Of a stretch of 27,065 bases of DNA, positions 6,285-26,864 are shown one piece after another (the stretch's first letter is position 1; every line of letters starts with the position of its first letter). The stretch covers positions 1 to 27,065 of IMG/VR virus record IMGVR_UViG_3300035145_000192. One strand, given 5' to 3'. The stretch comes from a virus. Below the pieces are notes generated by a model. It saw only the letters and a program-made list of their open reading frames with translations, was not told the DNA's origin and searched no databases. Position numbers and translations under genes: made by a program.

Positions 6285-6313
6285 ATATTACCAGAGCTAA
6301 TATTGATTAGTAA
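6285..6313 (-). promoter_or_regulatory. Predicted promoter with dyad ATATTA-N7-TAATAT (fibre operon)
   Basis: On the minus strand TTACTA (6313-6308), 17 bp and TAATAT (6290-6285) form a promoter-like pair. A perfect TATAAT is also present three bases further downstream. The dyad ATATTA GCTCTGG TAATAT (6303-6285) matches 26315-26333 exactly in both arms and in spacer length. Initiation about 7 bases past the -10 would leave a leader of about 14 nt carrying the AGAGGA ribosome site of the BppU-like gene. Confidence 0.6.
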
Positions 6314-6651
6314 GCCCAAATCACCGGCTCCTGGGTCCGAATGTCCACATGTACGAAGGTTTTAGCCACACCGATACCGCCAAAACCAAGCTCCAGGGCG
6401 TGCTTAATAATCGTCCGTCTCTGCGAGCCTGTAGAAACGGCGATGTCTGCAGCAATTCCTTGAGCGTGAGTACCGGGCGCTTGCTTAGCGGCCTCGATGC
6501 TGTGTCTTTCGGACCGATATCCAGAGGTAATTTTGAAGGCAAAACCGCATCTTTCGCGCAGCTCGTCGAGGCTATGTATGAACTCAGGCAGCATCTCGTT
6601 CTCGCCTGTTTCTTGACAATCAAACTCTGAAATATCGAAGTACTTGTACAT
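6307..6651 (-). CDS. Endolysin, peptidase M15 family (D-Ala-D-Ala peptidase-like)
   Basis: This 114-aa protein is a compact, single-domain peptidase M15-type endolysin (Peptidase_M15_3-like) that would cut the peptide part of peptidoglycan at lysis. The motifs are ITSGYRSERH, then THAQGIAADI with zinc ligands H62 and D69, and FVHVDIR with H101. D103 probably belongs to the same centre. It has no signal peptide, so it needs the holin encoded just upstream to cross the membrane. I place the start at ATG 6651 because AAAGAG lies just before it; an in-frame GTG at 6654 would add one residue. Sitting between holin and fibre genes, it completes the lysis cassette. Short M15 endolysins of this size are common in marine phages. 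Confidence 0.88.
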   Translation of the reverse strand: MYKYFDISEFDCQETGENEMLPEFIHSLDELRERCGFAFKITSGYRSERHSIEAAKQAPGTHAQGIAADIAVSTGSQRRTIIKHALELGFGGIGVAKTFVHVDIRTQEPVIWAY

Positions 6652-6678
6652 CACTCTTTCTTCCCAAACGCCTAGTAG

Positions 6679-7080
6679 TTACTTTTCGCGCTGTATGCCT
6701 TTAGTTTTTTCAAAAGTCCGCAATCCGCCGAGCCCAAGCATCCCCAAAAGTACTGTCATAAGGCTTTGCATATCGAAAGTCGGCAGTGTCGGCAGTTCAG
6801 TTCCTGTATATGCGGTAACAAACAGCGTTACTGGTAATCCAAGAAAGTGCCAAAACAGCGCCAAACCACATGTCCAACCAACAAAAGGTCGCCAGCCAGC
6901 TACAAACATCGATTTGTGTGCTGCTTCGGTCTTGTTGACCTCCAGCTGCCCCTTTGCCAACTCCTGTGCATGGCGCTCAGACATGGTGGCAATTTCATGG
7001 GCGAGCCTGTTGCGCTCATCCGCGTCGGGGATGAACTTGTCGAGCAGGCTAGTAACAGGCCCTATTAATGCTTCTAACAC
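6679..7080 (-). CDS. Holin, 3-TM gene-transfer-agent type
   Basis: An amphipathic N-terminus (residues 1-55, SLLDKFIPDADERNRLAHEI then a charged helix) is followed by hydrophobic segments. They are at about 61-90 (VAGWRPFVGWTCGLALFWHF then LGLPVTLFVTAY) and at 105-120 (SLMTVLLGMLGLGGLR), with a basic C-terminus. W-R-P-F-V-G-W-x-C-G is the signature I associate with the GTA_holin_3TM family. It would form membrane lesions that release the M15 endolysin encoded downstream. The start is GTG at 7080, supported by AGGAG six to seven bases upstream. That site overlaps the stop codon of the giant virion gene, so expression is probably coupled to late structural transcription. Confidence 0.85.
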   Translation of the reverse strand: MLEALIGPVTSLLDKFIPDADERNRLAHEIATMSERHAQELAKGQLEVNKTEAAHKSMFVAGWRPFVGWTCGLALFWHFLGLPVTLFVTAYTGTELPTLPTFDMQSLMTVLLGMLGLGGLRTFEKTKGIQREK

Positions 7081-7089
7081 CCTTGTCTC

Positions 7090-10000
7090 CTAAAGCTGGC
7101 TGTATATCGGAATCAAGCGATTACCTAACGTGCGATCGACGCGCCAGCCATTCTGGAATACCTCTTCAATCGTCTCGGCGGTAGGCCCGAGCAAGCTAAA
7201 GATCGCTGAGCCACCCCACTCTGAATTTTGATGTGCCATCTGAGCCATGCTCAGCGGCCCCAGGAATCCTGACTTCTCGATAATCTCAAACCAGTAGTCG
7301 TCCCAGTCCATCTTGTCCGATCGGAAGTACTTCTGATCTGGCTCTTTACCCGGTATCAGCCACGCCAGCCCGTTCTTAGCGTACTCCCGCAGCTCCATGC
7401 CTAGCATCGCAAGCGGCATAGTGGCGACTGCAGTAAGCAGTAGTATCGAAGCAACGGCGGTAAGCTGCGCTTGGCCGGTTGTTGTCTCTGTGCGGGCCTC
7501 GGCTTCCCGCAGTACCCCACCCATGATGGTCTTGTAGTAGCTGTAGAAGTAACCCTTCAACTGCCAAACCAGAGCCCAGCGCGGATCAGAGGCCCAGACC
7601 GGTCGCTCTGCTGCGTTAGGACGCATGATTGATGACTCTACAAAACGAGCCAACGCGTCGCGCACCTTAACGCCTTCGGGAGTATCGAAACTTTTGTTCT
7701 CGTTCCACGCCAGAATTTCTTCGGCAGTGACGCCAAGCTCTTCGAGGTATCGCGTTGAGTTGGGGTTGTTGAACTCGTTCCGAGCGTGGTTTAGCAGGAA
7801 CTGCACGCCCATGTTAGATGCAAACTCGCGGCTGAACTTGGTAAAGAAGTCGAGACCAATCAAACGGAACCAGCCGTCTGACAGCTTCCGCACAAACGGG
7901 TCCATGTAATCCTGTTCGGCTTGCGTAACCCACGCGTTGGCGACGGTCTCGTTAGTAACAACACCAATATCCCTGGCTAGTTGCTGTGCTTCTTGGCGAT
8001 TCTTAACCGTAGCGGCAATCTGCTTGAAGCCTGTCCACAGCCCACTAAAGTCCTTGTGGTTAATAATTGGCCCCGCCAGATCAGGCAGCGAAGCGATAGT
8101 GGCAAACGGCAGGATCGTTACAAACTGCAGGAACTGACCCCAGCTGTTGAGCTTCCGCATCCACGGAGCAATAGGCTCCTTTTGGTAACCGAGGTATGAA
8201 GCGATTACATCTTCAGCTGTCTTGCGGTCCTCAGCTGATAGCTTCGCCAAGCGCTTTTTAAGCTGTTCTGGCCCGCCGGTAGCCTTGTTGAACTCGACGC
8301 GCTTGACTACGTGACGCATGTAATCGACGAATGCTGCCCCCGGTTCATTTACAAAGCCGTAAAAGTCGAGAAGCTCCCGGTCAATATTAGCAGTCAGCTT
8401 GATTGCCTGCTCCACCGCAGCTGCCGGGTTCGTAGGGTCAATGGCAGTCTCTTCCTCAATTGACTGACCAAGTTTCACGAGACGATCGATTGATGCGTCA
8501 ATAGTTTTTGCATCGAGCGTAGGATCGTTATCGAGCAACAGCTGCTTGAACACCTCTCGCCGCTCGGTGACTTCAAACAGGTTTAGTGAAATTGGGAAGT
8601 AGTCAGGCCGCTTGCCGACGCCCGTGTTACTGGGCTCTATGTACTCGTCATAGAAAGTCTCTAGGTAGTCGCGAATCTGGCGAGCTACGCCTGTCAATTC
8701 TGCGGTGGGGATTGAGCTAAATGCCCTCTCAAAACCAGCCTGAACCTCTGGCGAGGTCATGTCGCCAATCTCACGCTCGAATCGGTTCTTCCAGCGGCCT
8801 ACAGTCGTGTTAACCGCGCGCAAGAAGCCAAGCTTGCCACGACCTGCCAAATCCTGCGCTCGGACGTAGAACATGTCTGCAATCTCGTCCCCCGCCACTC
8901 TACGGAGGATGTTGTCTGCGGGGAGCAGTAGGCTGCGGATTGCGCCAGCAAGGTTGCTCTTAGTGGCCTTCTCGTAAGCTCGTGCAGTAGACCGAGCCCC
9001 AGGTGTGTTTTGCACCTGCTCGACTATGTCGGGGACCATCGTCTGTTGCAGCGTTGTGGTATTTGCAGTTTGGTTATGCCTTTCTGCTGAGTCGAGAACA
9101 CCTTCTATGTATTGCTCGAATGTAGTGTCAGGAGTAATGAAGTTCGTTGCTCTACCAGGAGCAAAACTGGTCCCAAATCGATTCTGCCAAGCGCGACCTG
9201 CCCGAAGGAACAGGTCGTACAGGCGTCGACCTAGCTTCTTGAAATGACGCTCCGTCATATTGCGAGCTTGTTTGTTTAGGTAGCGCTTCGTGGCCCATTT
9301 TGCGACCTGATCTGCGTACCATTCCTCGAAAGGCGCATCTTGTCTTTCATAGCCTTTTGTTAACGGGCTTTTCCGATAAGCCTCTTCTAGCCGCTTTCGT
9401 AATGCGGGGTTAGCCATTGCCTTTGATTGCTCCTGACGATAAATCGCGTGGCCCATTTCATGAGCTAGCACAAGCGCATCGAGAGTAGAGTTACCTGTCT
9501 CCCTCAACATGATGATATTCGTTGGCGGATCGTAGTAACCATTCGCATTCGGGTTAGATCCAAGCAAACCCTTCAATCGGAGCACAGTACTAGCCACGCT
9601 AGGCTCATAGGTGTTGCGTATCTCTGTGTCGCTAAGTTGCTCCAGCTCTGCGTAACTGAAGATCGACGGGCGCTCTTCGAATGAAAAGCTATTCAAAAGC
9701 TCGTCATGTACACCTTTAACTATTTCGTCGGTTTGCCATGAGCTAGCAGCACGACCCCCAAAAAAGCGGGAACTTGTGCGCCTTGGGGGTGCCGCCGAAT
9801 CTACCCTACCAGTAGTAGACGGCGCTCCGCCCCTGCGTCGATCAATAGAAAGATCATCTTCGCTTTCAGGTTGCGCTTGCTCTCGTTCTTCTGCAAAAAC
9901 TTGAGTGGTCTGCCCTTCGTCAGTAGTAGCGATTACGCTACTTACAGATCTAGCACCTGCCTCAATCTCAGCTGAGCTCAACCCGTCTTGTGCCTCTAGG

Positions 10001-12516
10001 TTTGCCTCCTCAAAATTAGAATCAGATGTTTCTGCATCTTCGCTAGGATCAAAATCCCTACGTTCATTTATTGGGCCAACTTCGCTAACAGTTTCGCGAA
10101 CCTCGGATGCCGTTACTTCAGATCCGCGAGCCCCGCGACCTAATAAATAGTTGATACTTAGGCCGTCTTTCACCTTCAGGTTTGCGCCTTTAAACTCTCC
10201 GTTCGGCGCAAAATTACGCTGATTTAAGAGGCTAACGCCGTTTTTGTCTTGTATGTCAAAACGGCCTGTGGCTGTAGACACTTCGTCACCTAACAGGTCG
10301 CTTAGCGATGAGTTGAAGACGGAGTTATCACGGTACAAAACTAATTCGGACAAAATCTCAAGCATCGCTGCCCGGTCAGTGTTTAGACGACCGCCGCCGC
10401 CCACATACTCCGTACCTTCTCTGGCACGCAACAACCCTCGGCCCATGTTCATCAACCGAGCAAGGTCTATAGTTGTGCGCCTGCCGTCAGGACGAACCAG
10501 CACTGCGCTCCGATTTCCAGGCTTACCTCCCTGTGCAAATCCAATCGCCTTTATTAGATACTGCTCTTTTGGCAGGCGCTGGCTTCTGCCATCCGCTTCG
10601 AAGGTGTATACCTCGTCAAAATCCTCTCGAATGACTTGGAAAACGCCATCTTTCTCTTGAATAGAAACAACGGAATTTGGATAGTCCGCCTGCTCTCTAA
10701 GGGCGGTACGCATAGTAGAAGCGTTGTATTGGTCTAACTGCGGGTCATCACCAAACTCTCTGGCGTATTCTCGGCGCAGCTCTATCTCATTGTCGAAAGG
10801 CTCCCTAGACGTGTCACGCGGCGTAAACTCTCCAACAACCTCTACTTCTGATTGAGTAACAGTCCTGTTTTCCTCAAACTCCTCGCGCTGTTCGAAACGC
10901 TGTCTCTGCTCTTCGCCCATGTTCTCGAAGGCAGATTGGTCCGTCATACCTAGCTCTTCCAGAGTCTCGTCATCAAACTCCATAGGACGAACATCTTCGG
11001 CCTCAAGCTTTCTCTTACGTGCTTCTAGGGCTTGATCTGCAGATACCACGCGGTATTGGAAGATAGGAGATAATTTTTCAGCGTTGGCTTTTGCTGCTTC
11101 AAGGTTTGCTGCAGTGGTCAGCTCTGCTGACACCACGTTACCTTTGTAGTCCAGAGCTTCTACAACTAGATCAGCGCCATCTACCTTTGGAGATGTATAA
11201 CCTAAAGCTTCGGCCAACGACTCCTCATTAGCACCCGACTTAACTACCTCATCGGCAAGCTTTTCATCCTTTGTGACGATGGTTCCGCGGCCCGGGATGT
11301 ATCGGGCATGGAATACTTTGCCATCTTCTTCGAAGCGACCGTCTTGGGGGAACCGCTCTCTGCCCTGCTCTCCCGCAATCCATACGGCCTGCTTGGTGCT
11401 GTTTGCGTCGTGAATAGCGGCTAGCTGAGCATCTAGGTCGACTTTTGGTTCAGGGGTGGTTACTCCCTCATCGGTTTCACCGAACTGTTCCGCATTGATC
11501 TCTGCATCAACACGCTGTCCCTGAGACTGCGCCAGCTTCTCTCTGGCTTTATCAATGATGCGCTTAGACTCGCCTGCTGCGGCACCCAGCGTACCTCCAG
11601 CAGCACCCGCAGCTTTACCGCCTAAGAAACCGGCGAACGCGGACTCTGCCAAGCGCAACGCAGCGTCCTCGCGGGTAAAGTCATCATCCAGGTCAAACCT
11701 GTTAGCTACGCTAATACCTTCTTGCACAAATTCAGTTGTGCCTTCGATTGCCCCACCCTTCAGAGCGGAGCCAGCGATGTCGCTAGCGAGACGATTAAAG
11801 ATGCCACCTTCCTTGGCAGCGCGTTTACCGGCCACGTTCCCGACCAGCTTGAGCAAAGCGACTTCGCCCAAAACTCCAACGGCAGCTTGTGGTGCGCCCA
11901 CTACTGCTGCACGGAATGCCTGCATTGGATCTAGCTCCTTGCCGGAATCCAACGCTTCAGACAAGTTGCTGCCTGACAGGGGTACGTACTCAGACGTAAA
12001 AGCACCGCCCAACGCGCCGCGCCGGAAGTACTTATACATTTCGTTTGCGAGCTCAGTCTCGTCAGGAGTAGCAACGCCTTTTGCTGTTTTTGACAATGCG
12101 TCACTAACAACTCGTTTTGCCGCGTTGCGGCCTGTTGCTGACAAGACCCCCCGCCCAGCTACTGCGGTGATACCACCAATGCCTGCTCCCGCTATGGTGG
12201 AGACGGCGGATGGTGTGATCTGACCTACTGCTTTTACTGACTGAGTGAGGAAGCCTTCAAAGGTGGGCTGGTCTAAGAACTCCTCGAAAGACTGGATGTC
12301 TCCCATTAAGTCAGCAGTGTATTCCTCGTTCTGACGGGCCTCTGCGATATTTGCGGCGGCAGCTTCGTCTGCCCCGACAAGCGTTTGAGCAAGCGCCTGA
12401 AAATAGTCTACGTCAGTGGAAAGACCTTCGGCACCGGACTCTGCTGCGCGAGAAAAAACCTCAGCGAGAGGGATGTCACGTTCAACCGCTGCTACCTTGT
12501 CACGACCTGTGGCCAA
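7090..12516 (-). CDS. Giant internal virion/polyvalent protein with HEMGH metallopeptidase motif (1808 aa)
   Basis: Regions in order: Ala/Gly-rich N-terminal hydrophobic stretches (about 90-330); acidic linker regions (340-900); a zincin-like segment with HEMGH at 1019-1023, where H1019, E1020 and H1023 are candidate catalytic residues, and a downstream FEEWYAD (1063-1069) that may give the third ligand. The C-terminal half contains KRPDYFPISLN (1302 on), hydrophobic segments at about 1460-1485 and 1685-1710, and an ending that resembles large polyvalent protein-associated domains (LPD38 type, from memory). By size and position it matches the last ejected core protein of podoviruses (T7 gp16 role), helping DNA cross the cell envelope. 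Here a peptidase replaces the usual transglycosylase. The start is TTG at 12516, with TAGGAG eight bases upstream and an in-frame TAG just before. Confidence 0.8.
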   Translation of the reverse strand: MATGRDKVAAVERDIPLAEVFSRAAESGAEGLSTDVDYFQALAQTLVGADEAAAANIAEARQNEEYTADLMGDIQSFEEFLDQPTFEGFLTQSVKAVGQITPSAVSTIAGAGIGGITAVAGRGVLSATGRNAAKRVVSDALSKTAKGVATPDETELANEMYKYFRRGALGGAFTSEYVPLSGSNLSEALDSGKELDPMQAFRAAVVGAPQAAVGVLGEVALLKLVGNVAGKRAAKEGGIFNRLASDIAGSALKGGAIEGTTEFVQEGISVANRFDLDDDFTREDAALRLAESAFAGFLGGKAAGAAGGTLGAAAGESKRIIDKAREKLAQSQGQRVDAEINAEQFGETDEGVTTPEPKVDLDAQLAAIHDANSTKQAVWIAGEQGRERFPQDGRFEEDGKVFHARYIPGRGTIVTKDEKLADEVVKSGANEESLAEALGYTSPKVDGADLVVEALDYKGNVVSAELTTAANLEAAKANAEKLSPIFQYRVVSADQALEARKRKLEAEDVRPMEFDDETLEELGMTDQSAFENMGEEQRQRFEQREEFEENRTVTQSEVEVVGEFTPRDTSREPFDNEIELRREYAREFGDDPQLDQYNASTMRTALREQADYPNSVVSIQEKDGVFQVIREDFDEVYTFEADGRSQRLPKEQYLIKAIGFAQGGKPGNRSAVLVRPDGRRTTIDLARLMNMGRGLLRAREGTEYVGGGGRLNTDRAAMLEILSELVLYRDNSVFNSSLSDLLGDEVSTATGRFDIQDKNGVSLLNQRNFAPNGEFKGANLKVKDGLSINYLLGRGARGSEVTASEVRETVSEVGPINERRDFDPSEDAETSDSNFEEANLEAQDGLSSAEIEAGARSVSSVIATTDEGQTTQVFAEEREQAQPESEDDLSIDRRRGGAPSTTGRVDSAAPPRRTSSRFFGGRAASSWQTDEIVKGVHDELLNSFSFEERPSIFSYAELEQLSDTEIRNTYEPSVASTVLRLKGLLGSNPNANGYYDPPTNIIMLRETGNSTLDALVLAHEMGHAIYRQEQSKAMANPALRKRLEEAYRKSPLTKGYERQDAPFEEWYADQVAKWATKRYLNKQARNMTERHFKKLGRRLYDLFLRAGRAWQNRFGTSFAPGRATNFITPDTTFEQYIEGVLDSAERHNQTANTTTLQQTMVPDIVEQVQNTPGARSTARAYEKATKSNLAGAIRSLLLPADNILRRVAGDEIADMFYVRAQDLAGRGKLGFLRAVNTTVGRWKNRFEREIGDMTSPEVQAGFERAFSSIPTAELTGVARQIRDYLETFYDEYIEPSNTGVGKRPDYFPISLNLFEVTERREVFKQLLLDNDPTLDAKTIDASIDRLVKLGQSIEEETAIDPTNPAAAVEQAIKLTANIDRELLDFYGFVNEPGAAFVDYMRHVVKRVEFNKATGGPEQLKKRLAKLSAEDRKTAEDVIASYLGYQKEPIAPWMRKLNSWGQFLQFVTILPFATIASLPDLAGPIINHKDFSGLWTGFKQIAATVKNRQEAQQLARDIGVVTNETVANAWVTQAEQDYMDPFVRKLSDGWFRLIGLDFFTKFSREFASNMGVQFLLNHARNEFNNPNSTRYLEELGVTAEEILAWNENKSFDTPEGVKVRDALARFVESSIMRPNAAERPVWASDPRWALVWQLKGYFYSYYKTIMGGVLREAEARTETTTGQAQLTAVASILLLTAVATMPLAMLGMELREYAKNGLAWLIPGKEPDQKYFRSDKMDWDDYWFEIIEKSGFLGPLSMAQMAHQNSEWGGSAIFSLLGPTAETIEEVFQNGWRVDRTLGNRLIPIYSQL

Positions 12517-12527
12517 CCCGGTTACTC

Positions 12528-14501: not shown

Positions 14502-14510
14502 GACACTTCC

Positions 14511-16903: not shown

Positions 16904-16909
16904 CGGCTA

Positions 16910-17611
16910 TTACCCCGCTACTGCTGTAGTTAAATTAGGGTTGGCTCTACTTTCGGTGTTTGGTGTGGTAATCAGATCTACCTGCCCTTTTCCAGTCAAA
17001 GACTGCAAGAACAACTGGTAGTGCCCGTTGGCACGCTGAGAGTTACCTGCGTACTCGGCGTCTTTCAGGTATGCCTGATACAGCACGTAGTTCATGACCG
17101 CGTTGGCGTAAATGTCAGGAATAGATAGGTTGTCGCTGGCCGTGACAGCTGCGGGGTTCGCAGAGTAGACAATCTCTATGTAGGAGTTACCACTTACGCC
17201 CGGGTATACGTAAAAATTGCGCGGGTTCTGCTCATCGTAAATGTAGTGCTTGACCTCTGCGCCATGAGCCGCATCACCTGAAACGGTCGGGTCATGCCAG
17301 TTAGGTACTTGAGCATCTAGGATCTCACGGCTAACAAGACGGATAGATCGGCCACCCGTCCCCCCTGACGATGCTGACATGTTTCTAACTACTCGCAGCA
17401 AGCGATTGCCAGCGCTAGGGATTTCCTGCTTGGTCCCCGTTGCAAGGGTCACAGTAGCGTTTACGGCGCTTGCATCTGGCTTTAAAAGAGCGATTTCACG
17501 CTGTGCGTCGTTGACCCAAAAAACCAGCTCTGATTCTGGCCATCGGATATTAGAGGTGTCCTGCAGGGTAGTCTCTACTCTTGTAAGGACGCTAGCTACC
17601 GTAACGCTCAT
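16910..17611 (-). CDS. Phage adaptor protein, DUF6682-like (233 aa)
   Basis: It opens with ASVLTRVETTLQDTSNIRWP then ESELVFWVNDAQREIALLKP, the motif I associate with DUF6682/phage adaptor proteins. Next come ATGTKQEIPSAGNRLLRVVRN, a predicted beta sheet with YIYDEQNPRNFYVYPGVSGN, and a C-terminal helix (IYANAVMNYVLYQAYLKDAE) followed by GNSQRANGHYQLFLQSLTGK. Such proteins bind below the portal and connect head to tail. The ATG has a strong AAGGAGAG site. The gene is 12 bases downstream of the 115-aa gene in the unit that follows the capsid terminator. It is soluble, with no signal or membrane segment. Confidence 0.75.
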   Translation of the reverse strand: MSVTVASVLTRVETTLQDTSNIRWPESELVFWVNDAQREIALLKPDASAVNATVTLATGTKQEIPSAGNRLLRVVRNMSASSGGTGGRSIRLVSREILDAQVPNWHDPTVSGDAAHGAEVKHYIYDEQNPRNFYVYPGVSGNSYIEIVYSANPAAVTASDNLSIPDIYANAVMNYVLYQAYLKDAEYAGNSQRANGHYQLFLQSLTGKGQVDLITTPNTESRANPNLTTAVAG

Positions 17612-17623
17612 TGAAACTCTCCT

Positions 17624-17971
17624 TTATGAGTTAAGGGCTTGCTGCCAAGCCTCTTCACGTTCATTCGTGGGTACTGTGCGTCCTGCGTACTTGTTAACAG
17701 CGGTAGCTTTTGGCGTTCCGTCTGCTTTGAAATCATCGGGATTAGCCGTATTGATGATTTCATCCATAACCTCGACCAGCGGCTTCTGATCTTCTGCGGG
17801 TGGCTCTGACTCAACTTCTGGCGTCGGAGCATCCCCTACAATTTCTGCGCCCATAGTTAAAGCGATCTTTCCAATCTCATCGCCAACTTCTCGTGGCACA
17901 CCGGCTTCAAACAGCACTACGGCCCCAGATAGCATGGCTACCCTAAGAGGCTCTTTGCTAACAATCTTCAT
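17624..17971 (-). CDS. Unknown head-associated protein downstream of capsid (115 aa)
   Basis: The N-terminus (MKIVSKEPLRVAMLSGAVVL then FEAGVPREVGDEIGKIALTMG) looks like a small beta/alpha unit. A Pro/Glu-rich acidic linker (about 50-65) leads to a C-terminal motif DDFKADGTPKATAVNKYAGR followed by TVPTNEREEAWQ. From memory, that second motif recurs in small phage proteins located directly after capsid genes, with no assigned function. AAGGA precedes the ATG. The gene begins just past the capsid terminator, so it is probably expressed by read-through at lower level than capsid. A role in head completion is only a positional inference. Confidence 0.7.
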   Translation of the reverse strand: MKIVSKEPLRVAMLSGAVVLFEAGVPREVGDEIGKIALTMGAEIVGDAPTPEVESEPPAEDQKPLVEVMDEIINTANPDDFKADGTPKATAVNKYAGRTVPTNEREEAWQQALNS

Positions 17972-17984
17972 GAGTTTTCCTTAG

Positions 17985-18008
17985 AAAAAAGGCCCCCCGA
18001 AGGGGGCC
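17985..18008 (-). terminator. Intrinsic terminator after major capsid gene
   Basis: On the minus strand GGCCCCC-TTCG-GGGGGCC forms a perfect 7-bp GC stem with a cUUCGg tetraloop (18008-17991), followed directly by six T (17990-17985). It starts 7 bases after the capsid stop codon. This is the clearest terminator in the window and should make the capsid mRNA 3' end, with read-through feeding the connector genes. Confidence 0.92.
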
Positions 18009-18015
18009 ATGGACC

Positions 18016-19161
18016 TTACTGAGCGGTATCGAGGCAGACGACTCCGAAGTCTTCTACGCCGCCGTTGATGTCAGCGTTGTACTTAGGCTTGCGAAGACCG
18101 AAGATCTTGCCTACCGAAATACCCAGCTGATTACCGTAGTCGAAGGTATCTTCTACGATCTCAGGCAGACCAATGTCAGCCATAGCCAGCGCCTGAGCAC
18201 CTACAAACAGAGCTCGTGCACCAGTTACGTCTGCATCAGCACCCCACTTGTAGCCAGCAGCACCAGCGTTAGAGGAAGTACCAGTCGTAGCACCTTCAGT
18301 TGAGAAGACGTGACGGAACTCGTGGACCATTACGCCATCAACCATCAGGCTTGAAGAACCAGCAAACAACTCGTTGCTAGGACCACGGACACCTGCGTTA
18401 CGGACGTTAGCCAGGAAGTCTGAGTCGAGCTTCAGATCAGCCATTTGCTGCGGGGTAACAAACAGGTGGAACACCTCTTGGTTTCCAGCAGCACGCATGC
18501 CACGGATGTAGTTGTCTTTGGCGTATGCCTTGAGCTCTACAATGTGACGGTAAGCCAGCTTGTCAGTGGCTGTAACAGCAGTAGTGTCGCCTGCAGCCAA
18601 AGTCGTGCCGCTAACTCGACGGTGTCGGTTAGTAGTGGGAGCAGACACGTCTGAAGCAAACTCCAGGTCTACCAACTCGTGACCAGCAGATGACGAAGTA
18701 GTTCGCAGCGCACCGTTAGTCTTGTGAGTATAAGCAACACCAGACAGAGTCAGGAACGCCAGCTGGTCGATACGATCAGCCATTGCGTAAGCCAGCATGT
18801 CGCGCGAAGTCTCACGGAAGTTAACGATCGTCTTCTGATCAGCAACTCGGCCCGCGATACGGTTTGCGAAACGCAGCTGGTCCAGCTCAATGGTGATGTC
18901 ATACGCGCGGAGGGCTTCTTCGTTGCCTTCCAGCGTGTTGTCACCAGTGATACCGTCTCCAGTCATGTCAGCAAGCAAGGTCAGGTTCGCCTTGGTGCCT
19001 TTCTCTGACTTAGTGAGCTCAGTAATGCGCTGAACAGCGGCGTTCTGGCCGGTTCCAGCAAACTGGTTAACAAAAGAAGCGTTGCGGGCAACGCGCCAAA
19101 AATCACGGGACCACGCCTGAAGCTGGTCGCCCGTGAGGGTTCCGAAATTAGTAGTAGCCAT
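18016..19161 (-). CDS. Major capsid protein, N4-gp56/DUF4043 type (381 aa)
   Basis: The N-terminus MATTNFGTLTGDQLQAWSRD is followed by FWRVARNASFVNQFAGTGQN, then TELTKSEKGTKANLTLLADM and TGDGITGDNTLEGNEEALRA. That order is characteristic, from memory, of N4-gp56-family (DUF4043) HK97-fold capsid proteins. Further on, LRFANRIAGRVADQKTIVNF, a capsid-like FHLFVTPQQMADLKLD loop and DTFDYGNQLGISVGKIFGLRKPKY support full length. The start ATG has GGGAG 7 bases upstream. The gene has its own 251-bp leader with a predicted promoter and hairpins and ends on a strong terminator. It is therefore set up as a separately controlled, highly expressed transcription unit. It assembles the icosahedral head around the acidic scaffold-like protein. 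Confidence 0.92.
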   Translation of the reverse strand: MATTNFGTLTGDQLQAWSRDFWRVARNASFVNQFAGTGQNAAVQRITELTKSEKGTKANLTLLADMTGDGITGDNTLEGNEEALRAYDITIELDQLRFANRIAGRVADQKTIVNFRETSRDMLAYAMADRIDQLAFLTLSGVAYTHKTNGALRTTSSSAGHELVDLEFASDVSAPTTNRHRRVSGTTLAAGDTTAVTATDKLAYRHIVELKAYAKDNYIRGMRAAGNQEVFHLFVTPQQMADLKLDSDFLANVRNAGVRGPSNELFAGSSSLMVDGVMVHEFRHVFSTEGATTGTSSNAGAAGYKWGADADVTGARALFVGAQALAMADIGLPEIVEDTFDYGNQLGISVGKIFGLRKPKYNADINGGVEDFGVVCLDTAQ

Positions 19162-19412
19162 TTGGGTTCTCCCTTAATAGGCATAAAAATATTGGCGGCA
19201 AAAGCCACCGTTCTTAGCCGACTTAAAGGAGCGGCTAATCCGTACCCCGTATCGTGAGGCGACGAACTAGCGCTGTTTTACGAGGTGCGACCTCGGCTTC
19301 TTTAACGCCTGTGCAGGCGAAGACGTTTTTAGCGTGATCGACACGATCAGTTATCGTACTGATAGACGAATGCTACTGTGATATTAGCGTGGGTAATACC
19401 CAAACGCAAGAT
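19162..19412 (-). other. Structured 251-bp capsid leader, five hairpins
   Basis: No gene with a credible start was found here. In transcription order the region carries the promoter-like dyad (19381-19409) and then five inverted repeats. They are TGATCG-N3-CGATCA (19349-19335), CGCCTGCACAGGCG (19319-19306), CGAGGT-CGC-ACCTCG (19295-19281), TTAGCCG-N11-CGGCTAA (19238-19214) and GGTGGC-TTTT-GCCGCC (19209-19194). The last stem contains a G-U wobble that pairs only in the minus-strand RNA, and it is followed by AATATTTTT. The stems could stabilise, process or attenuate the capsid mRNA. A 45-codon frame without any start (19238-19372) is described in the findings. Confidence 0.7.
19381..19409 (-). 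promoter_or_regulatory. Predicted capsid promoter with dyad near-copy
   Basis: Minus strand TTGCGT (19409-19404), 17 bp, TAATAT (19386-19381). A near-perfect dyad overlaps it: GTATTA-N7-TAATAT, with one arm base changed from the two perfect copies. It lies immediately after the stop of the 156-aa gene. The predicted transcript would have a leader of about 210 nt before the capsid ATG. Confidence 0.55.
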
Positions 19413-19883: not shown

Positions 19884-19886
19884 AAC

Positions 19887-20282
19887 TCACCGATAACGTG
19901 AGGTCTTCTTAGCAATATTTTTAGGCTGCTTAGAAAACTGTTTACCCTTCCTGGTATCTTCGCGCTTCTTCCTAGAAGTTGCTGCGTACTCTTTTTTACT
20001 TAGCGCGTCTCTTGCTTTCTTCGGTAAGTACCGCTCGCCGGTAGCCTTGCTACCCTGTGTGCTGTTCTTCCCGCTTTTGGTGCCCCATTTCTCCTTTGTC
20101 CACTTGGACAAGGACTTTTGTGCTTTGGTTTTAGCACCTGAATAACCGCCTCCAGCCTTTTTGTATCGTTGAGTAGCAAGCTGCGCCTTCCTAGCGCTCC
20201 ATTGCCCCGGTTTACCACCTTTTGAGCCAGCTTTTACCGCTGCGACAATGCGCTTCCACTTCGCCTCGTCAGTGCGAGCCAT
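19887..20282 (-). CDS. Lysine-rich DUF5872-like protein (131 aa)
   Basis: It opens MARTDEAKWKRIVAAVKAGS, then GGKPGQWSARKAQLATQRYK. The core AQKSLSKWTKEKWGTKSGKN then GERYLPKKARDALSKKEYAA fits a small domain I recall as DUF5872, also present in marine viruses and large algal viruses. The basic tail (REDTRKGKQFSKQPKNIAKK) makes the whole protein strongly positive. The ATG overlaps the stop of the 30-codon gene (TAATG). Neighbours are other basic small proteins, the scaffold-like gene and the capsid gene. Nucleic-acid binding in the head or a role in assembly is suggested by charge only; no enzyme motif is visible. Confidence 0.7.
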   Translation of the reverse strand: MARTDEAKWKRIVAAVKAGSKGGKPGQWSARKAQLATQRYKKAGGGYSGAKTKAQKSLSKWTKEKWGTKSGKNSTQGSKATGERYLPKKARDALSKKEYAATSRKKREDTRKGKQFSKQPKNIAKKTSRYR

Positions 20283-20374
20283 TAGTACTTCTTCTTGGCC
20301 TTAGCCTTCGCTTTTTTCTTAGCTGGGGCCTTCTTTTTGCCTCGCTTTGCGCTACAAGGTTTTCCGTCGTGCAT
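20282..20374 (-). CDS. 30-aa lysine-rich peptide (histone-tail-like)
   Basis: This small frame is easily missed. ATG at 20374 has GGGAGC five bases upstream. The gene lies two bases after the 103-aa stop, and its own stop overlaps the next start (TAATG), so it is locked into the operon. The product begins MHDGKPCSAKRG and then is almost only Lys and Ala (KKKAPAKKKAKAKAKKKY), with 15 lysines and one arginine in 30 residues. It resembles the tails of histone H1 or bacterial H1-like proteins. It may bind phage DNA or RNA; this is inferred from charge. The single Cys is its only other feature. Confidence 0.72.
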   Translation of the reverse strand: MHDGKPCSAKRGKKKAPAKKKAKAKAKKKY

Positions 20375-20376
20375 GA

Positions 20377-20688
20377 TTAGCTCCCTTTCTTCCATTTAGT
20401 GGACTTGGATTTCGTCTTACTGGGGGACCACTTGACCTTGTCCGCCCAATAAGCCGCTGACATCTTTCCTTTCGAGATATTTTTGGCATGGCGCGACTTA
20501 AACGCCTTGCGCTGACCAACTGTCTGGTTGGTCTTGACCCCCTGCTGACCAAAACGGATGGTTTTGACCTGATCGCCCTCTTTAGCGACCACAATGTGGG
20601 ACTTAGTTGGGTGAGAGGGGGTGCGCTTGGGCTTGTTGAAACCCGATACACCTGCTCTCGCGAGTCGGGGGTCTTTTTCTCTGGCCAT
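20377..20688 (-). CDS. Conserved-looking basic phage protein (103 aa)
   Basis: The protein MAREKDPRLARAGVSGFNKP then KRTPSHPTKSHIVVAKEGDQ, VKTIRFGQQGVKTNQTVGQR, KAFKSRHAKNISKGKMSAAY and W-A-D-K-V-KWSP has the look of a family I have seen often in marine phages without function. From SRHAKN to the end it is Lys/Ser-rich. The pattern FKSRHAKNI...SAAYWADKVKW could fold as a small metal-free nucleic-acid-binding unit, but no cysteines are present. The ATG overlaps the scaffold-like stop (TAATG), with AGGAGA about ten bases upstream. It is the first of three consecutive basic genes between scaffold and capsid. Confidence 0.75.
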   Translation of the reverse strand: MAREKDPRLARAGVSGFNKPKRTPSHPTKSHIVVAKEGDQVKTIRFGQQGVKTNQTVGQRKAFKSRHAKNISKGKMSAAYWADKVKWSPSKTKSKSTKWKKGS

Positions 20689-21704
20689 TACAAGAGATCT
20701 CCTCGTAATCGTTTAATCGTTGCCTCTGGAAGCGCGTTAAATTCGTCTTCCGTCATAGTGCTGATGTCCAGGGCCTTTTCGCCGCGGGCCGCAGAGCTTT
20801 CACCGGGCAGTTCCGGTGGTTGCGACTTCGCTGCGTTAAGCTTTTTGTTTACTTCGGCGCGTTTTTTGGCAACTTCGTCCTGCACGGGCGCAGCAGACTG
20901 CGTCAAAGTCGACTCTTGCGGAGCTTCTTGGGCCAAATCGTGATCTTTAATGACAAACTTGGCTGCTTTAGACAGTGCGTCTACCGCATCAAAGCCCTGT
21001 ACGATGAAAGCGTCACGCAAATCGATAACTTCTTGCGTGTAATCCGCGTTGTATTCGGCAGAATTCTGGTCAAATACCGGAAAATTCGCCTCTAGCTCGT
21101 TTGCAGCGGCTTGTAACGCAGTAGCTTGTGCATTTTGTGACACGGTCTGCTGCATTTTTTGGCTCATGTCGAACTCAAGCTGCGTTTTTTCCGCAGTTCG
21201 GATCTCTTGACGCAGTCGTACCGCCTCTGCTTCCTTACCGTCGAGCACTAAATTCATGTACTCGCGCTCTTTGGCGTCAAAGTCGTAAGCGTCAGGTGCG
21301 TCCGCAGGGGGTTCCTGCGCTTTTTTCATGTCTTCTACCTGCTTCTGCAGGGCTTTTTGCTTCGCAAGCACCTCATCTAGACGCGATTTCGGCACCATCG
21401 GCTTATCTTTAGTAACGTCGGGCTCTGGGGCGGGCTCCGGCTCTGCTTCTTCGGCAACTACCTCCTCGGTTTCTTCGGCTACTGGCTCCTCTTCAACAGC
21501 CTCTTCCTCCGTTTCTCCCTCTACTTCTTCCTCGGCTTCAGCAACAACCTCCTCTTGCACCTCTTCCTCGGCTTCGGCAACCGGCTCCTCGCCAAGCCCA
21601 AAGTTCAAATCAAGTGCCTCTTCCTGCTCGGTGCTCTTGTCAGCGCCGGGCATTACGTCAAACACTTCGTCGAACTGATTGTTTGGGGTTTCTTCCTTTG
21701 CCAT
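20688..21704 (-). CDS. Acidic scaffold-like protein (338 aa)
   Basis: Residues 25-100 are extremely Glu-rich (for example EAEEEVQEEVVAEAEEEVEG). Next come KPMVPKSRLDEVLAKQKALQ with a predicted coiled coil (about 108-130), and helical charged sequence with DAYDFDAKEREYMNLVLDGK and QEVIDLRDAFIVQGFDAVDA. The C-terminus ends TEDEFNALPEATIKRLRGDL, a motif I associate with capsid scaffold proteins of portal-linked gene clusters. Position between portal and capsid genes, acidity and coiled-coil content all fit a scaffolding protein that directs procapsid assembly. A ribosome site AGGAGA lies seven bases before the ATG. No protease domain is seen. Confidence 0.8.
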   Translation of the reverse strand: MAKEETPNNQFDEVFDVMPGADKSTEQEEALDLNFGLGEEPVAEAEEEVQEEVVAEAEEEVEGETEEEAVEEEPVAEETEEVVAEEAEPEPAPEPDVTKDKPMVPKSRLDEVLAKQKALQKQVEDMKKAQEPPADAPDAYDFDAKEREYMNLVLDGKEAEAVRLRQEIRTAEKTQLEFDMSQKMQQTVSQNAQATALQAAANELEANFPVFDQNSAEYNADYTQEVIDLRDAFIVQGFDAVDALSKAAKFVIKDHDLAQEAPQESTLTQSAAPVQDEVAKKRAEVNKKLNAAKSQPPELPGESSAARGEKALDISTMTEDEFNALPEATIKRLRGDLL

Positions 21705-21715
21705 GTGGCAATCTC

Positions 21716-23878
21716 CTATTGCGGGTTACGAAAATTTGGAACGTCTATCTGCTTTGGCCTTGCTGCCTGTTTCTTGGCAGAGGTCTGCATGGCAGTCGCC
21801 GCGATGCGTGTTGCAGCATTTGTTTCTGACTGATCTCGGCGGGTCTGGTTAGTGAGGTCGGCCAGCTCACGACGCAACATGAGCTCCTGCTCCTTCATCT
21901 GCATCTTGCTCTGCATCTCAGCGATGCGAACCTGCGGATCAACTTCTGCCATGTCCTGAACCTTGGCGACGTTGAGCGCCGCTTCGGTCTGGGTCTTCCT
22001 CACGTCTGCCTCAAGCTGAGCAATTTCAAGCTGCAACTTGGCGATTGCCATCTGTTGCTGCATGGCCATGGCTTCTGCCTGCTCGGGAGTTGGCGGCTCC
22101 TGACCAGTAAGCTGGCGGATGCGCTTGGCCAGCTCACCCTTCTTGGCAAGGTGGCTGTACTCGATGATGGCGTCATCTGGGATGGCAACACCGACCTGCC
22201 GGAGATTAAGCGCTTCAGCGAACTGCACCTCATCGAACGAGTCACGGGCAGGTGCTGTAGCAATTACCACGTCGTACTCACCCAGCGTCAGGTCGTTCAG
22301 GATCTGCCCTTCGGGTGTCACCTCGTTAATCATCATCGGCATGCGGGGCTGCAACGGATCGCTCTCATCTGTAACCATGATGATGCGCTGCTCGGTATAG
22401 AACGCCTGAATAAGATCAAGCACCTTCTCGGCTAGGTACTGCCGCGACTTACGCAGATTGTCGAGTGGCACCTGGATCATGACCACGCCACGGTTCTGCT
22501 TGGCTTGGATCGCGACCCCTGATACTTCGGCGCTGTCAGAACCGAGCATGCTGTCGTTGATGCCCGAGATGGTCTTTATGTTCAGCGCAGCTTTCTGGCT
22601 GATGCGATCAAGACCAGTGGGGATCTGATTAGGCTGAATCTTGGTGGGCGGTGAGGAACCCCGGTTGTACTCGACAACCAGTCCTGTCTCAGCGCCGTGC
22701 TCCTCCAAGTCATCGGCTGTCATACCAACCAACGACCCACTTTCTACCATCCAGCCGCTATTAGCTGTGGTATTAACAATATGCAGCTCTTGGCTGGCAA
22801 TTTTGTTCAACTGCTCCTGCGGTGATAGCAGGTTACGCACCATGCCAAAGGGTCGGCCACGGCGGAAGTATGCGAAGAACGGCACAATCGTCAGGTCGTT
22901 GTAAGGACTCCAATCGTCATGCAGCACGACGTGATCGCAAGTTACGGTCCACCTCACTCGCCGTTTCACTTTGCTAATGATGTCCAGCCCGTACTGCTTG
23001 GCAAACTTCTTAGCCTTAGTGTCAGACCAGTTTTCTGGTACGTCGCGTGCGTCACCCGTGTTCGGATCAACGTAGCAATCCACCCGGGTCATGCGCTTGT
23101 GCTGACGCTCGATGACCCGCAGCGCACGCACGTTGCGATACTCATCATCGCCCGGCACACCCGCGCCAAAATAGTCGTCTACTGAGTCCGTATCCCCGAA
23201 GCGATTTTCCTCATACTCGATGGAGTCACGCCCGAAACCTGCGCCGTTTTCAGCAATGAAGCGCAGCTCTTCCGCCTTCTTCTTGCCGTACAGCTCCTCG
23301 ATCTCATCGAGAGTCATCCACTTCGTCTCAAACACCTCGTTCCAGCTTTTTGGGTCTGAATCTTTTGCGTCTGGGTCAATGAGAATGTCGAGCGGATCTT
23401 TGGCGGTGATGCGGATCTCACCCTCAACGTGATCGCTGAAGTCCATCCGAACGTCGAAATACCCCCGTCCATCGAGGATCAGGCCGTCGCTAAACACCTG
23501 CTGCTCAACCCAGTCGAGCTTATTGTTGTCAGCAATCTGCATGTACAGCTTGGTTAGAGTCTGTGCGACCTCTGCGTCACCGGAACGGCGGGGTTTGAAC
23601 TGCACATCTGCGCGGCGTGTGGACTGCTCGCCCAACACCGTGTTCACCGTTGGCAGAATCGTGTTGATCGTCAATGCTGGACGGCCCTCGTTGTCGAGCG
23701 CGTGCAGATCATCAAGATCCCACTGATCGCCGCGATAGAACGCGTCGCACTTTTTTGCCATCTCGATATATTCGAGGTGGCCGTTGTCTCGGGCGCGAAT
23801 GTAGCGATCCCATTGCTTGGAGGCGACTTCTTGCTGCTCAGCTGCTGTCATCCGTGACAGTGTCTTTTTGTAAGCCAT
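21716..23878 (-). CDS. Portal protein, P22 type (720 aa)
   Basis: The sequence MAYKKTLSRMTAAEQQEVAS then FYRGDQWDLDDLHALDNEGR, PALTINTILPTVNTVLGEQS and TRRADVQFKPRRSG is typical of P22-like portal proteins, as are SGINDSMLGSDSAEVSGVAI and LDNLRKSRQYLAEKVLDLIQ (family recognised from memory). The C-terminal 110 residues form a Gln/Glu/Met-rich coiled coil (barrel-like helix), as in P22 gp1. The portal dodecamer sits at one vertex, takes the terminase and later the adaptor. I chose ATG 23878; an in-frame GTG three codons earlier (23887) overlaps the large terminase stop and is possible. It is one transcription unit with the terminases. Confidence 0.92.
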   Translation of the reverse strand: MAYKKTLSRMTAAEQQEVASKQWDRYIRARDNGHLEYIEMAKKCDAFYRGDQWDLDDLHALDNEGRPALTINTILPTVNTVLGEQSTRRADVQFKPRRSGDAEVAQTLTKLYMQIADNNKLDWVEQQVFSDGLILDGRGYFDVRMDFSDHVEGEIRITAKDPLDILIDPDAKDSDPKSWNEVFETKWMTLDEIEELYGKKKAEELRFIAENGAGFGRDSIEYEENRFGDTDSVDDYFGAGVPGDDEYRNVRALRVIERQHKRMTRVDCYVDPNTGDARDVPENWSDTKAKKFAKQYGLDIISKVKRRVRWTVTCDHVVLHDDWSPYNDLTIVPFFAYFRRGRPFGMVRNLLSPQEQLNKIASQELHIVNTTANSGWMVESGSLVGMTADDLEEHGAETGLVVEYNRGSSPPTKIQPNQIPTGLDRISQKAALNIKTISGINDSMLGSDSAEVSGVAIQAKQNRGVVMIQVPLDNLRKSRQYLAEKVLDLIQAFYTEQRIIMVTDESDPLQPRMPMMINEVTPEGQILNDLTLGEYDVVIATAPARDSFDEVQFAEALNLRQVGVAIPDDAIIEYSHLAKKGELAKRIRQLTGQEPPTPEQAEAMAMQQQMAIAKLQLEIAQLEADVRKTQTEAALNVAKVQDMAEVDPQVRIAEMQSKMQMKEQELMLRRELADLTNQTRRDQSETNAATRIAATAMQTSAKKQAARPKQIDVPNFRNPQ

Positions 23879-23879
23879 G

Positions 23880-25550
23880 TTATGCACTCATCGCTGATTT
23901 AGAGGCCCGTACCGGCCTGACCATGTGTTCCAGTCGATCCCGCCATGAAGGGGGCTTTATGACTGGTGCTTGGTATGTCGAAAACTCAGACATCATCAAA
24001 CCAAGCCACGCAAGCGCGTCGACTTGGTCATCGTGAACACCGTTGGGGAAACGCAACATCTCTGCGACCAACGGCCCTGTAAAATCCTCATCCCTGGGGA
24101 AGAACACCATGCCCTGCTGCATGCGTCCCTGGATGGCTCGGGCTCGGGCTTCCTTGTCCCGTCGACCCGTCTTCAGGTCCTTAAAGTACGCCTCATATAA
24201 GCCGCGCTCTCTGACGCGCTTCTCAAGAAACGGCCCCAGCGCCATCTCGATGTGACCTTTCTCAATGCCGACGATGCTGGGCTTCCACGCTTCGTACAGA
24301 TCTAGAATCTGTTCGACCAGCTCAAAGCCGTCGAACTTTCCGCGCACCACGTCAATGACGTACAGGCAGTCCCGTTCATCCACCCCGATGACCATGCCGA
24401 CCGAGTAGTCGTTACGGTCCCGCTTGCCGATGGCCAAGTCCCACGCGCAGTAGTACCGCATCTGGTTGTAGTCGAGGTCTTCACGGTCGTAGTACTGGAT
24501 CATCTGGCGCGAGAAGTAGTCGCCGTCGTCCGCGACCGGATTCTGCTGATAGAGGGCCGACCAATCTCTCGGTCCAACGGCTCTTTTGATTTGCTGCAGA
24601 GACTCCACGTTATACCGCTCGGCGTGGAGAGCATCGCCCTTAACTCGGAACTCTTCGTCTTCTTCTGCGATGGCTGGGTACTTAACGACGGTCCACTCAT
24701 CTCCGCCCTCTGCTCCTGCTTTGAGAAGCCGCCCAGCCAAATCGTCATCATGCCAGCGAGTGAGAATGACAAGTACGCCACCACCAGGAGCAAGACGCGT
24801 GTAAGCAGTAGACGTATACCAATCCCAGTTAGCGTCGCGGTTATTCTGGCTCTCAGCGTCCTCACGGTTCTTTACAGGATCGTCGATGACAAGGACATGT
24901 GCGCCTTTACCAGTGATACCACCACCGACACCAGCAGCAACGTACCCACCACCTCCAGTAGTAAGCCATGCCTCTGCACTTTGGGAGTCTTTGTCCAGAC
25001 GCGTCTGAAAAGCGGTTTTATACGTCGGTTCACGAAGGAGCTGACGGACCTTGCGACTGAAGCCCATAGCAAGCGAACCCGAATACGAGCAAGATATAAA
25101 TTCGTGGTCAGGATGGCGACCCAGATGCCAAGCCGGGAACGCCACCGACGCCAAGGTACTTTTTCCATGGCGCGGTGGCATGAAGAGCATAAGTCGCGGA
25201 CTTTTCTTTTCAGCCACGTCACGGCTGAACTGCTCCAAGCGCTGACAGATGTCTTTATGGACCCAGCCAGCGTGGTAATCGGGGTTAAAGCGTTCAACAA
25301 ACGGGAGAAGACGCTTTCGCGTAAGGATGCGTAACGCCAACTCCGCTTTTGCTTTGTGCTCAAGACTTTGCTCCTCCTCTTTCTCTTCGAGTGCAGCTTC
25401 TACCTCGGGGGCCACTGATGGTGCTGGCAGTGCTTCGTTTCTTTCAGCTAGGCAATAGACACACTCATCAGCTGTATCACTGGCGAACAAGGTCTCGGGT
25501 TGGAGTGTTTTGCAGTGCCCGCACTCCCTTTTAAGCACCTCATTACTCAA
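23880..25550 (-). CDS. terL: Terminase large subunit (556 aa)
   Basis: An N-terminal Cys pair module C10-x2-C13 ... C30-x2-C33 may bind zinc. The ATPase domain has Walker A MPPRHGKST (124-132), Walker B VLVIDD (219-224) and the coupling motif LTRWHDDD (263-270). The nuclease domain has D371 in YCAWDLAIG, E430 in VGIEKG and D507/D508/D511 in HDDQVDALAW, an RNase H-type metal site. It packages DNA into the procapsid through the portal. The start is TTG at 25550, preceded by GGAG at seven bases and overlapping the small terminase stop by eight bases. An ATG a few bases later is out of frame. Length is typical, and all catalytic residues appear intact. Confidence 0.95.
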   Translation of the reverse strand: MSNEVLKRECGHCKTLQPETLFASDTADECVYCLAERNEALPAPSVAPEVEAALEEKEEEQSLEHKAKAELALRILTRKRLLPFVERFNPDYHAGWVHKDICQRLEQFSRDVAEKKSPRLMLFMPPRHGKSTLASVAFPAWHLGRHPDHEFISCSYSGSLAMGFSRKVRQLLREPTYKTAFQTRLDKDSQSAEAWLTTGGGGYVAAGVGGGITGKGAHVLVIDDPVKNREDAESQNNRDANWDWYTSTAYTRLAPGGGVLVILTRWHDDDLAGRLLKAGAEGGDEWTVVKYPAIAEEDEEFRVKGDALHAERYNVESLQQIKRAVGPRDWSALYQQNPVADDGDYFSRQMIQYYDREDLDYNQMRYYCAWDLAIGKRDRNDYSVGMVIGVDERDCLYVIDVVRGKFDGFELVEQILDLYEAWKPSIVGIEKGHIEMALGPFLEKRVRERGLYEAYFKDLKTGRRDKEARARAIQGRMQQGMVFFPRDEDFTGPLVAEMLRFPNGVHDDQVDALAWLGLMMSEFSTYQAPVIKPPSWRDRLEHMVRPVRASKSAMSA

Positions 25551-26076
25551 CGGACGGCTCCAGGTATGTGGCGTCTTTACCCGCGATCTTTATCAACTCC
25601 TCATCCGACAAGCGCTCTAGCTGCTTAGACGTTGCGTTGATCTGCACATTTACCTGCGCCTGCGGCTCTTGCTGCACCAACCCGTGCAGCTTGACCAACG
25701 AGTCCGTTGTGTTTTTCATTTCAGTAGCATTGGCCGACGCGGAGTAAGCCTCCATGTACATGCCGTGCGCGTTAGCAATGGTGAACTTCACTGTTTCCCG
25801 CGCTTGCTCGCGGAAATAACCCAGCGCCTTCTGTAGCTCTGGGCGACGCACAGCTTTGAGGGCTGCGTCATAGGACTTGTAGCCGACAGCTCGCGCTGCA
25901 GCTCTGATCGACATACCTGATGCGACTAGCATGACGAGCTTTTCTTGTTGGACGGTCAATGTCCCATGGGCCAGGCCCATGTACGGCATCCGAGCTTGAA
26001 ACTCTGTATGTGTTAGATCGACATCCTCTTTAATGGAGTCGATGCCTTCCTCCAGAAGTTCCGCTTTTGATCTCAT
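25543..26076 (-). CDS. terS: Terminase small subunit (177 aa)
   Basis: I start at ATG 26076 (MRSKAELLEEGIDSIKEDVD). The longer upstream in-frame stretch (to 26175) runs through the previous gene and has a Trp/Leu-rich, atypical composition. Residues 40-75 (LTVQQEKLVMLVASGMSIRA then AARAVGYKSYDAALKAVRRP) form a helix-turn-helix like those that bind the packaging site in small terminases. A helical oligomerisation region follows (QARETVKFTIANAHGMYMEA) and then a short tail (LERLSDEELIKIAGK). It would recognise phage DNA and hand it to the large subunit, whose gene overlaps by 8 bp. Its start overlaps the 92-aa gene by 47 bp. Confidence 0.82.
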   Translation of the reverse strand: MRSKAELLEEGIDSIKEDVDLTHTEFQARMPYMGLAHGTLTVQQEKLVMLVASGMSIRAAARAVGYKSYDAALKAVRRPELQKALGYFREQARETVKFTIANAHGMYMEAYSASANATEMKNTTDSLVKLHGLVQQEPQAQVNVQINATSKQLERLSDEELIKIAGKDATYLEPSVE

Positions 26077-26308
26077 ACCGTAAGTCGTCGTCCAACCAAA
26101 CAAACATAGGTGCGCGTTCACCCAGGCCAGCCACATCAAGCTCCTGTATGAACGCCCACAACGAGAGCTCTGCACCGCGGCTCTCTAATAGTTCTTCAAC
26201 GCGTGCGGCGTCGTACACAAGTACTTCTTGGCCGCTTTCCCTTAATCCGATTCCAACCAAGGCTTCGAGAAGCCCATCAATCGCATAAGCTTCAGTGTAG
26301 TCGGACAT
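26030..26308 (-). CDS. Unknown small acidic protein before terminase (92 aa)
   Basis: The protein MSDYTEAYAIDGLLEALVGI then GLRESGQEVLVYDAARVEEL, LESRGAELSLWAFIQELDVA and FVWLDDDLRYEIKSG is acidic, helical and has no cysteine. The segment SGQEVLVYDAARVEELL looks like a strand-helix pair. I do not recognise the family. The ATG follows a predicted promoter so closely that the transcript might begin at or next to the start codon. No convincing ribosome site is present at ideal distance (AGGT lies 11 bases upstream). The 3' end overlaps the small terminase start by 47 bp. It might be a packaging accessory or early regulator. Confidence 0.65.
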   Translation of the reverse strand: MSDYTEAYAIDGLLEALVGIGLRESGQEVLVYDAARVEELLESRGAELSLWAFIQELDVAGLGERAPMFVWLDDDLRYEIKSGTSGGRHRLH

Positions 26309-26314
26309 AGATAC

Positions 26315-26343
26315 ATATTACCTGTACTAATATTTACTCGCAA
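26315..26343 (-). promoter_or_regulatory. Predicted promoter with dyad ATATTA-N7-TAATAT (packaging operon)
   Basis: Minus strand TTGCGA (26343-26338), 17 bp, TAATAT (26320-26315). The dyad ATATTA GTACAGG TAATAT (26333-26315) fills nearly the whole gap between the HNH stop and the 92-aa ATG, and its -35 lies in the end of the HNH gene. Seventeen of 20 bases match the element at 6285-6304. It is likely to drive the terminase and portal genes. Confidence 0.6.
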
Positions 26344-26810: not shown

Positions 26811-26836
26811 ACGCTGCTCCCCCAGGGTTTTACCCG

Positions 26837-26864
26837 AAGATAGGGGCAAAAAAATTTTTTGCAA
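26837..26864 (-). promoter_or_regulatory. Predicted promoter for HNH gene
   Basis: Minus strand TTGCAA (26864-26859), 16 bp and TATCTT (26842-26837), each matching four of six sigma70-type consensus bases. A run GCAAAAAAATTTTTTGC in the spacer is a 17-bp palindrome and probably bent A-tract DNA. The leader would be about 20 nt before the TTG start with its strong G-rich ribosome site. It lacks the ATATTA dyad of the other three. Confidence 0.4.

Follow-up and report, generated by a model that had tools for sequence, protein, structure and literature searches.

What might bind an inverted repeat that stands, overlapping promoter-like sequences, in front of the tail-fibre operon, the capsid gene and the terminase/portal operon of a phage? 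The three repeats lie in a viral record of 27,065 bp (referred to here, at its full length, as the window), which represents the structural half of a phage genome and whose genes are all located on the minus strand. In addition to a protein resembling HNH/endonuclease VII and a 92-aa ORF, the window encodes the small and large terminase subunits, the portal and capsid proteins, further virion structural proteins, a holin, an endolysin and tail fibres (Table 1). Its nearest isolates are distant, namely the Pseudomonas KPP25-like phages (capsid 52%) and Aeromonas phage phiA008 (terminase 52%); the phage collection searched contained no isolate that is closely related to the window.

Table 1. Predicted features of the window that bear on the dyads (all on the minus strand).
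Feature	Position	Strand	Remarks
First gene of tail-fibre operon, 124 aa	5890..6264	-	weak matches to families of unknown function
Predicted promoter-operator, tail-fibre operon	6285..6313	-	weak -35 TTACTA 6308-6313; -10 TAATAT 6285-6290; 17-bp operator 6286-6302
Major capsid protein	18016..19161	-	phrog_334, 6.2e-81
Structured RNA leader of capsid transcript	19197..19371	-	between operator-promoter and capsid start
Predicted promoter-operator, capsid gene	19381..19409	-	-35 TTGCGT 19404-19409; -10 TAATAT 19381-19386; 17-bp operator 19382-19398
Portal protein	21716..23887	-	phrog_156, 2.8e-124
Terminase large subunit	23880..25550	-	phrog_38, 1.1e-121
Probable small terminase subunit	25543..26175	-	by position; no PHROG match; true start uncertain, 26175 overlaps 92-aa ORF
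92-aa ORF, first gene of terminase operon	26030..26308	-	ATG at predicted transcription start
Predicted promoter-operator, terminase/portal operon	26315..26343	-	-35 TTGCGA 26338-26343; -10 TAATAT 26315-26320; 17-bp operator 26316-26332

Three dyads in the gaps of the window

The dyad ATATTA-N7-TAATAT is perfect at positions 6285-6303 and 26315-26333 and carries one mismatch at positions 19381-19399; beyond these three, the window holds no site with up to two mismatches. A re-scan bore out these positions, which had been reported in a preliminary description, together with the features that had drawn attention to them: all three copies lie in real gaps between genes (in total about 3% of the window), the arm TAATAT stands on the minus strand exactly 17 bp past TTACTA (6285), TTGCGT (19381) or TTGCGA (26315), and in the 19381 copy it is the other strand that shows the inner bases. 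The same description considered the dyads very unlikely to have arisen by chance, a judgement that was somewhat too strong for the window taken alone. Shuffled versions of the window contained on average 0.39 sites at up to two mismatches and, when any palindrome family of the form 6-N7-6 was allowed, three copies were reached in 2 of 60 shuffled windows. Hence, the three dyads in the window are by themselves only modestly unlikely by chance, and this finding is suggestive rather than conclusive.

All distances to gene starts given here are approximate, as the starts were taken from a simple ORF caller; by this measure, 21 bp separate the 6285 dyad from the gene that opens the tail-fibre operon, and the 19381 dyad lies 220 bp upstream of the capsid start. 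The former occupies the same place in G001, G011, G015 and G016, the latter is kept before the capsid gene in most relatives, and the terminase/portal dyad recurs as the same site in the same place in relatives L004-L013 and in G001. In the majority of relatives, the 92-aa ORF has its ATG 6-8 nt after the -10 box; its mRNA would be leaderless, starting at or next to position 26308 in the window. The HNH/endonuclease VII-like gene (26334-26864) ends directly before the predicted terminase operator, and related genes are likewise placed in several relatives.

Recurrence of the dyad in related phages

We compiled 161 related loci (1.68 Mb), three of which are pieces of the window itself, while some records overlap and several IMG/VR records are fragments; they contain 133 dyads (44 perfect, 89 with one mismatch), as opposed to none and one, respectively, in shuffled sequence. 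When aligned, the copies display TTGC at the -35 position, a fixed 17-bp spacer, and the sequence ATATTAG-N5-CTAATAT, in which the right arm doubles as the -10 box. They precede the terminase operon and the capsid gene, in the latter case about 214 to 228 bp upstream of the start codon in the genomes mapped. The scan of related genomes that had been proposed in the preliminary description therefore found the copies in equivalent gaps, in which they are strongly enriched, and because they recur there while shuffled sequences contain a single copy, the dyad is no accident. A chance similarity of AT-rich -10 regions, for which the outcome of the 2 shuffled windows might have spoken, is excluded by the 133 copies found at the same genes in relatives against one in shuffles, and we give it practically no credence.

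Piecewise reading covered twelve relatives, which are 43-61 kb long. A count of perfect gapped palindromes that presupposed no motif returned TATTAG-N5-CTAATA, or its longer form ATATTA-N7-TAATAT, as the most repeated one in G003, G005, G011, G013, G015 and G016, and TATTAG-N5-CTAATA is the top dyad in most relatives in which any dyad repeats; the majority of the complete relatives possess about 8 to 16 copies each. Among nine relatives that encode the XRE protein described below, and in which gaps make up 4-9% of each genome, 71 of 100 copies of this dyad type (up to one mismatch, strict call) lie in gaps, a share that rises somewhat with the inclusion of copies at wrongly called gene starts (G001, 9/11; G002, 9/11; G003, 9/13; G004, 0/2; G005, 13/18; G011, 7/10; G013, 7/11; G015, 10/14; G016, 7/10). 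The copies of G004 are degenerate, and few of them contributed to the 100. Copies inside coding regions exist as well.

The genes next to the dyads encode a primase-polymerase-like protein, a PD-(D/E)XK nuclease, a SNF2-type helicase, an excisionase-like HTH_17 protein (preceded by a predicted operator in several genomes), terminase, capsid, tail and fibre proteins. One consensus thus stands at many lytic operons of single genomes. The initial proposal of a late regulon is too narrow, because replication genes and the excisionase-like gene carry the same dyad.

Several further observations were made along these genomes. A one-mismatch dyad recurs within the gene for a large internal virion protein (window 11700, G001 37334, G011 21385, G015 3714), where it may reflect either codon constraint or an internal site. 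The same operator-like sequence, TATTGGTATAGCTAATA with one or two central changes, is present in several genomes within a lysis-region gene (G004 5139, G005 44450, G011 27296, G013 31737, G016 32082); it is accompanied by a TTGGAC -35 hexamer and in several genomes lies 170 bp before a 93-aa ORF. Nearly all complete relatives encode a 58-aa CsrA-like protein just before the primase-polymerase gene (in G001, L164:8933-9109). A contig of the cultured gammaproteobacterium Oceanisphaera litoralis DSM 15406 (L206) contains a prophage-like region whose capsid is 54% identical to that of the window; no dyad was found in the parts read of this Oceanisphaera prophage or of the distant isolates phiA008 and KPP25.

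The stretch of about 200 nt that separates the promoter at 19381 from the start of the capsid gene corresponds to a strongly conserved structured RNA (z -3.65; nine pairs with two-sided compensation). It occurs once per genome, before the capsid gene, in all close relatives that were searched (L088, L090, L099, L107 and others), whether or not they have the XRE gene, and has no match in Rfam. It might act in antitermination or in controlling translation of the capsid gene.

A lambda CI-like protein as candidate binder

Every complete relative that is rich in dyads has a gene for a protein of about 195 aa with an HTH_3 (XRE) domain, located between a nuclease gene and the HTH_17 and integrase genes; in G001, the closest relative, this gene spans 17511-18098. 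It adjoins the integrase gene in relatives and is not contained within the window; as close relatives carry it, the window's own phage is likely to do so too. The best solved match of the XRE profile is lambda CI (E 1.7e-9), with an hhalign value of 96.9% over 68 residues that are restricted to the N-terminal domain, and the predicted structure of this domain also matches lambda CI (Foldseek). Hence, the XRE protein has the five-helix HTH domain of the lambda type. Peptidase_S24 gave no match with the G001 protein at E 0.05, and hhalign covers the N-terminal domain alone. A peptidase-like C-terminal domain, which had been suspected from a sequence pattern, found no support in the model or in hhalign; the C-terminal half is modeled with low confidence and could possibly be a diverged, inactive relative. 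The XRE protein is the best candidate for a binder of the dyads.

The manner in which the dyads and the promoters interlock is informative. As judged from the sequence, the -35 and -10 hexamers at their 17-bp spacing form sigma-70 promoters. In the lambda record, OR1 begins 4 nt past the -35 hexamer of PR, and the -10 hexamer begins at position 14 of OR1; here, the predicted operator begins 5 nt past the -35 hexamer, and the -10 hexamer begins at its position 13. The placement therefore agrees to within 1 bp with that of lambda OR1 on PR, an arrangement that in lambda represses. Moreover, both hexamers are retained in several relatives in which the dyad is degraded or absent; because they persist without it, the dyad is superimposed on the promoter and does not form part of it. 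As the dyad overlaps the -10 box, a bound protein would be more likely to repress than to activate.

Operator and recognition helix change together. In G008, the dyad TAGTAC-N5-GTACTA is present with the same geometry at the terminase, capsid, primase-polymerase, helicase and HTH_17 genes, and the recognition helix of its XRE protein reads SNFSHYIANIN, as compared with GAFSQYLNNIT or GAISHYLNNIT elsewhere. Across 88 typed XRE loci, some of which overlap or stem from near-identical phages, the 79 loci with a helix ending in T are associated with 305 TATTAG and six TAGTAC dyads, and the nine with a helix ending in N with no TATTAG and 15 TAGTAC dyads. In a capsid tree, the latter kind forms a single clade with strong support (100/99) that arises from among the former, and the change of helix and operator consequently represents one evolutionary switch, though one in which many sites were altered at once. 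A rule taken from lambda structures, in which residue 55 sets base 6 of the operator, was discarded, since G and C both occur at this position within the clade of the window itself. The capsid promoters of L107, L110, L115 and L126 carry a third variant of the operator, TAATAC-N5-CTAATA; the capsids of L110 and L126 are nearly identical to that of L111, which has the standard operator, and this suggests a recent exchange of operator types.

The XRE gene was found together with a tyrosine integrase gene in 20 of 20 XRE-bearing records, and the integrase was absent from seven of eight XRE-less records, some of which are fragments; the eighth (G017) is a fragment with an integrase at its edge. 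XRE-less phages contain one dyad (G007), none (G026) or three to four sites (G006 and G009). This joint loss fits a CI-like repressor that disappeared along with the lysogeny module, and the phage family is apparently temperate. Nevertheless, the sites retained in XRE-less G006 and G009 speak against it. The XRE gene, moreover, resides inside the replication operon, whose own promoter bears a predicted operator, and a search upstream of it in relatives revealed no promoter of its own that is conserved; for these reasons, the model leaves expression of the XRE protein in a lysogen unexplained. A scan of genomes across whole species recovered no closely related integrated prophage and no host, the close relatives being phage-like contigs in metagenome bins. 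Of the relatives inspected for an attachment site derived from a tRNA, G005 alone yielded a possible one, a sequence resembling a tRNA 3'-end (2246-2280), 107 bp from the integrase gene.

Taken together, we consider it probable (about three chances in four) that the dyads are dispersed operators of a CI-like lysogeny repressor that act on ordinary promoters. The operators, 17 bp long and with the consensus TATTAG-Y-N3-R-CTAATA, would be bound by a homodimer of the lambda CI-like XRE protein, which would be encoded elsewhere in the phage genome, next to the integrase gene. Each operator would cover the spacer and the -10 box of an ordinary sigma-70 promoter of the host, so that a bound dimer would exclude RNA polymerase, and through some ten operators a single protein would directly silence the replication, excision, packaging, capsid and tail operons in a lysogen. 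It is a more tentative, and on balance unlikely, extension of this scheme that a lambda-type repressor lacking the peptidase silences every lytic promoter, including the late structural ones, with no need for a late activator, and that replication titrates the repressor and thereby times late expression.

The main rival assigns to the same XRE protein a Cro-like lytic role: made from the replication operon, it would shut early promoters and delay the late ones until replication has diluted it over the operators. This would be in keeping with the position of its gene, which lines up with the replication genes downstream of a promoter that carries an operator, with the undetected S24 peptidase domain, and with sites on early and late promoters alike. 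However, the retention or loss of the XRE gene together with the integrase, and the operator before the excisionase-like gene, fit control of lysogeny better, and we hold the Cro-like role to be rather improbable. The preliminary description had offered two interpretations, a dimeric phage regulator or a phage-modified host polymerase. The sites in relatives lend sequence-level support to the former, in the sense of a regulator that would recognize one dyad common to several sigma-70-like promoters. The overlap of dyad and promoter at constant spacing might have suggested that an activator binds the dyad, or that the dyad forms part of promoters for a polymerase modified by the phage. We regard this as very unlikely, since the -35 and -10 hexamers outlast the dyad in some relatives, the dyad covers the -10 box in the position of lambda OR1, its sequence changes with the CI-like protein, and no phage RNA polymerase or sigma factor was seen among 20 early G001 proteins scanned. 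Equally, a stem of 6-7 bp with a 5-nt loop could form in RNA, and many copies lie 20-30 nt before start codons, as a hairpin in transcript leaders might; yet among 70 distinct sites the seventh pair shows 20 breaks, none of them compensated, and the terminase ATG, 6-8 nt past the -10 box, implies that the dyad would not be transcribed there. An RNA hairpin is hence highly improbable.

If the proposed repressor is correct, a regulator of immunity can be named for a large and widespread family of uncultivated aquatic phages, along with its operators and the genes predicted to be under its control. Repressor-operator specificity can be read from metagenomes in this way, and the paired changes in recognition helix and operator form a natural set that is directly testable.

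Comparison with known repressor-operator systems

With lambda CI and its operator OR1 on PR, the proposed system shares a homologous DNA-binding domain and a symmetric 17-bp operator that lies in the spacer and overlaps the -10 box. It differs in that lambda has two clusters of three operators, whereas here about ten single operators are spread genome-wide and include late structural promoters; the half-site is another one, and the S24 peptidase domain of CI is undetected in the XRE protein. Dispersed inverted repeats are familiar from Streptomyces phage phiC31, in which conserved copies serve as repressor sites near phage promoters, a disposition that resembles the one found here.

The C1 repressor of phage P1 has 22 dispersed 17-bp operators per genome, which are asymmetric (ATTGCTCTAATAAATTT; PMC8546580). 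The likeness to P1 is one of architecture, with one repressor and dispersed 17-bp operators; in contrast to the P1 sites, those described here are symmetric and centered on promoters, and the putative binder has a lambda-type domain. Mycobacteriophages L5 and Bxb1 possess many stoperators, whose consensus diverges in step with the specificity of the repressor from one relative to another (PMC6550527); many sites per genome and a joint divergence of this kind are features that the present phages appear to share. Stoperators are asymmetric, mostly located off promoters, and block elongation (PMC6550527, PMC9283540), whereas the present sites are symmetric, mostly situated in gaps before genes, and lie on promoters.
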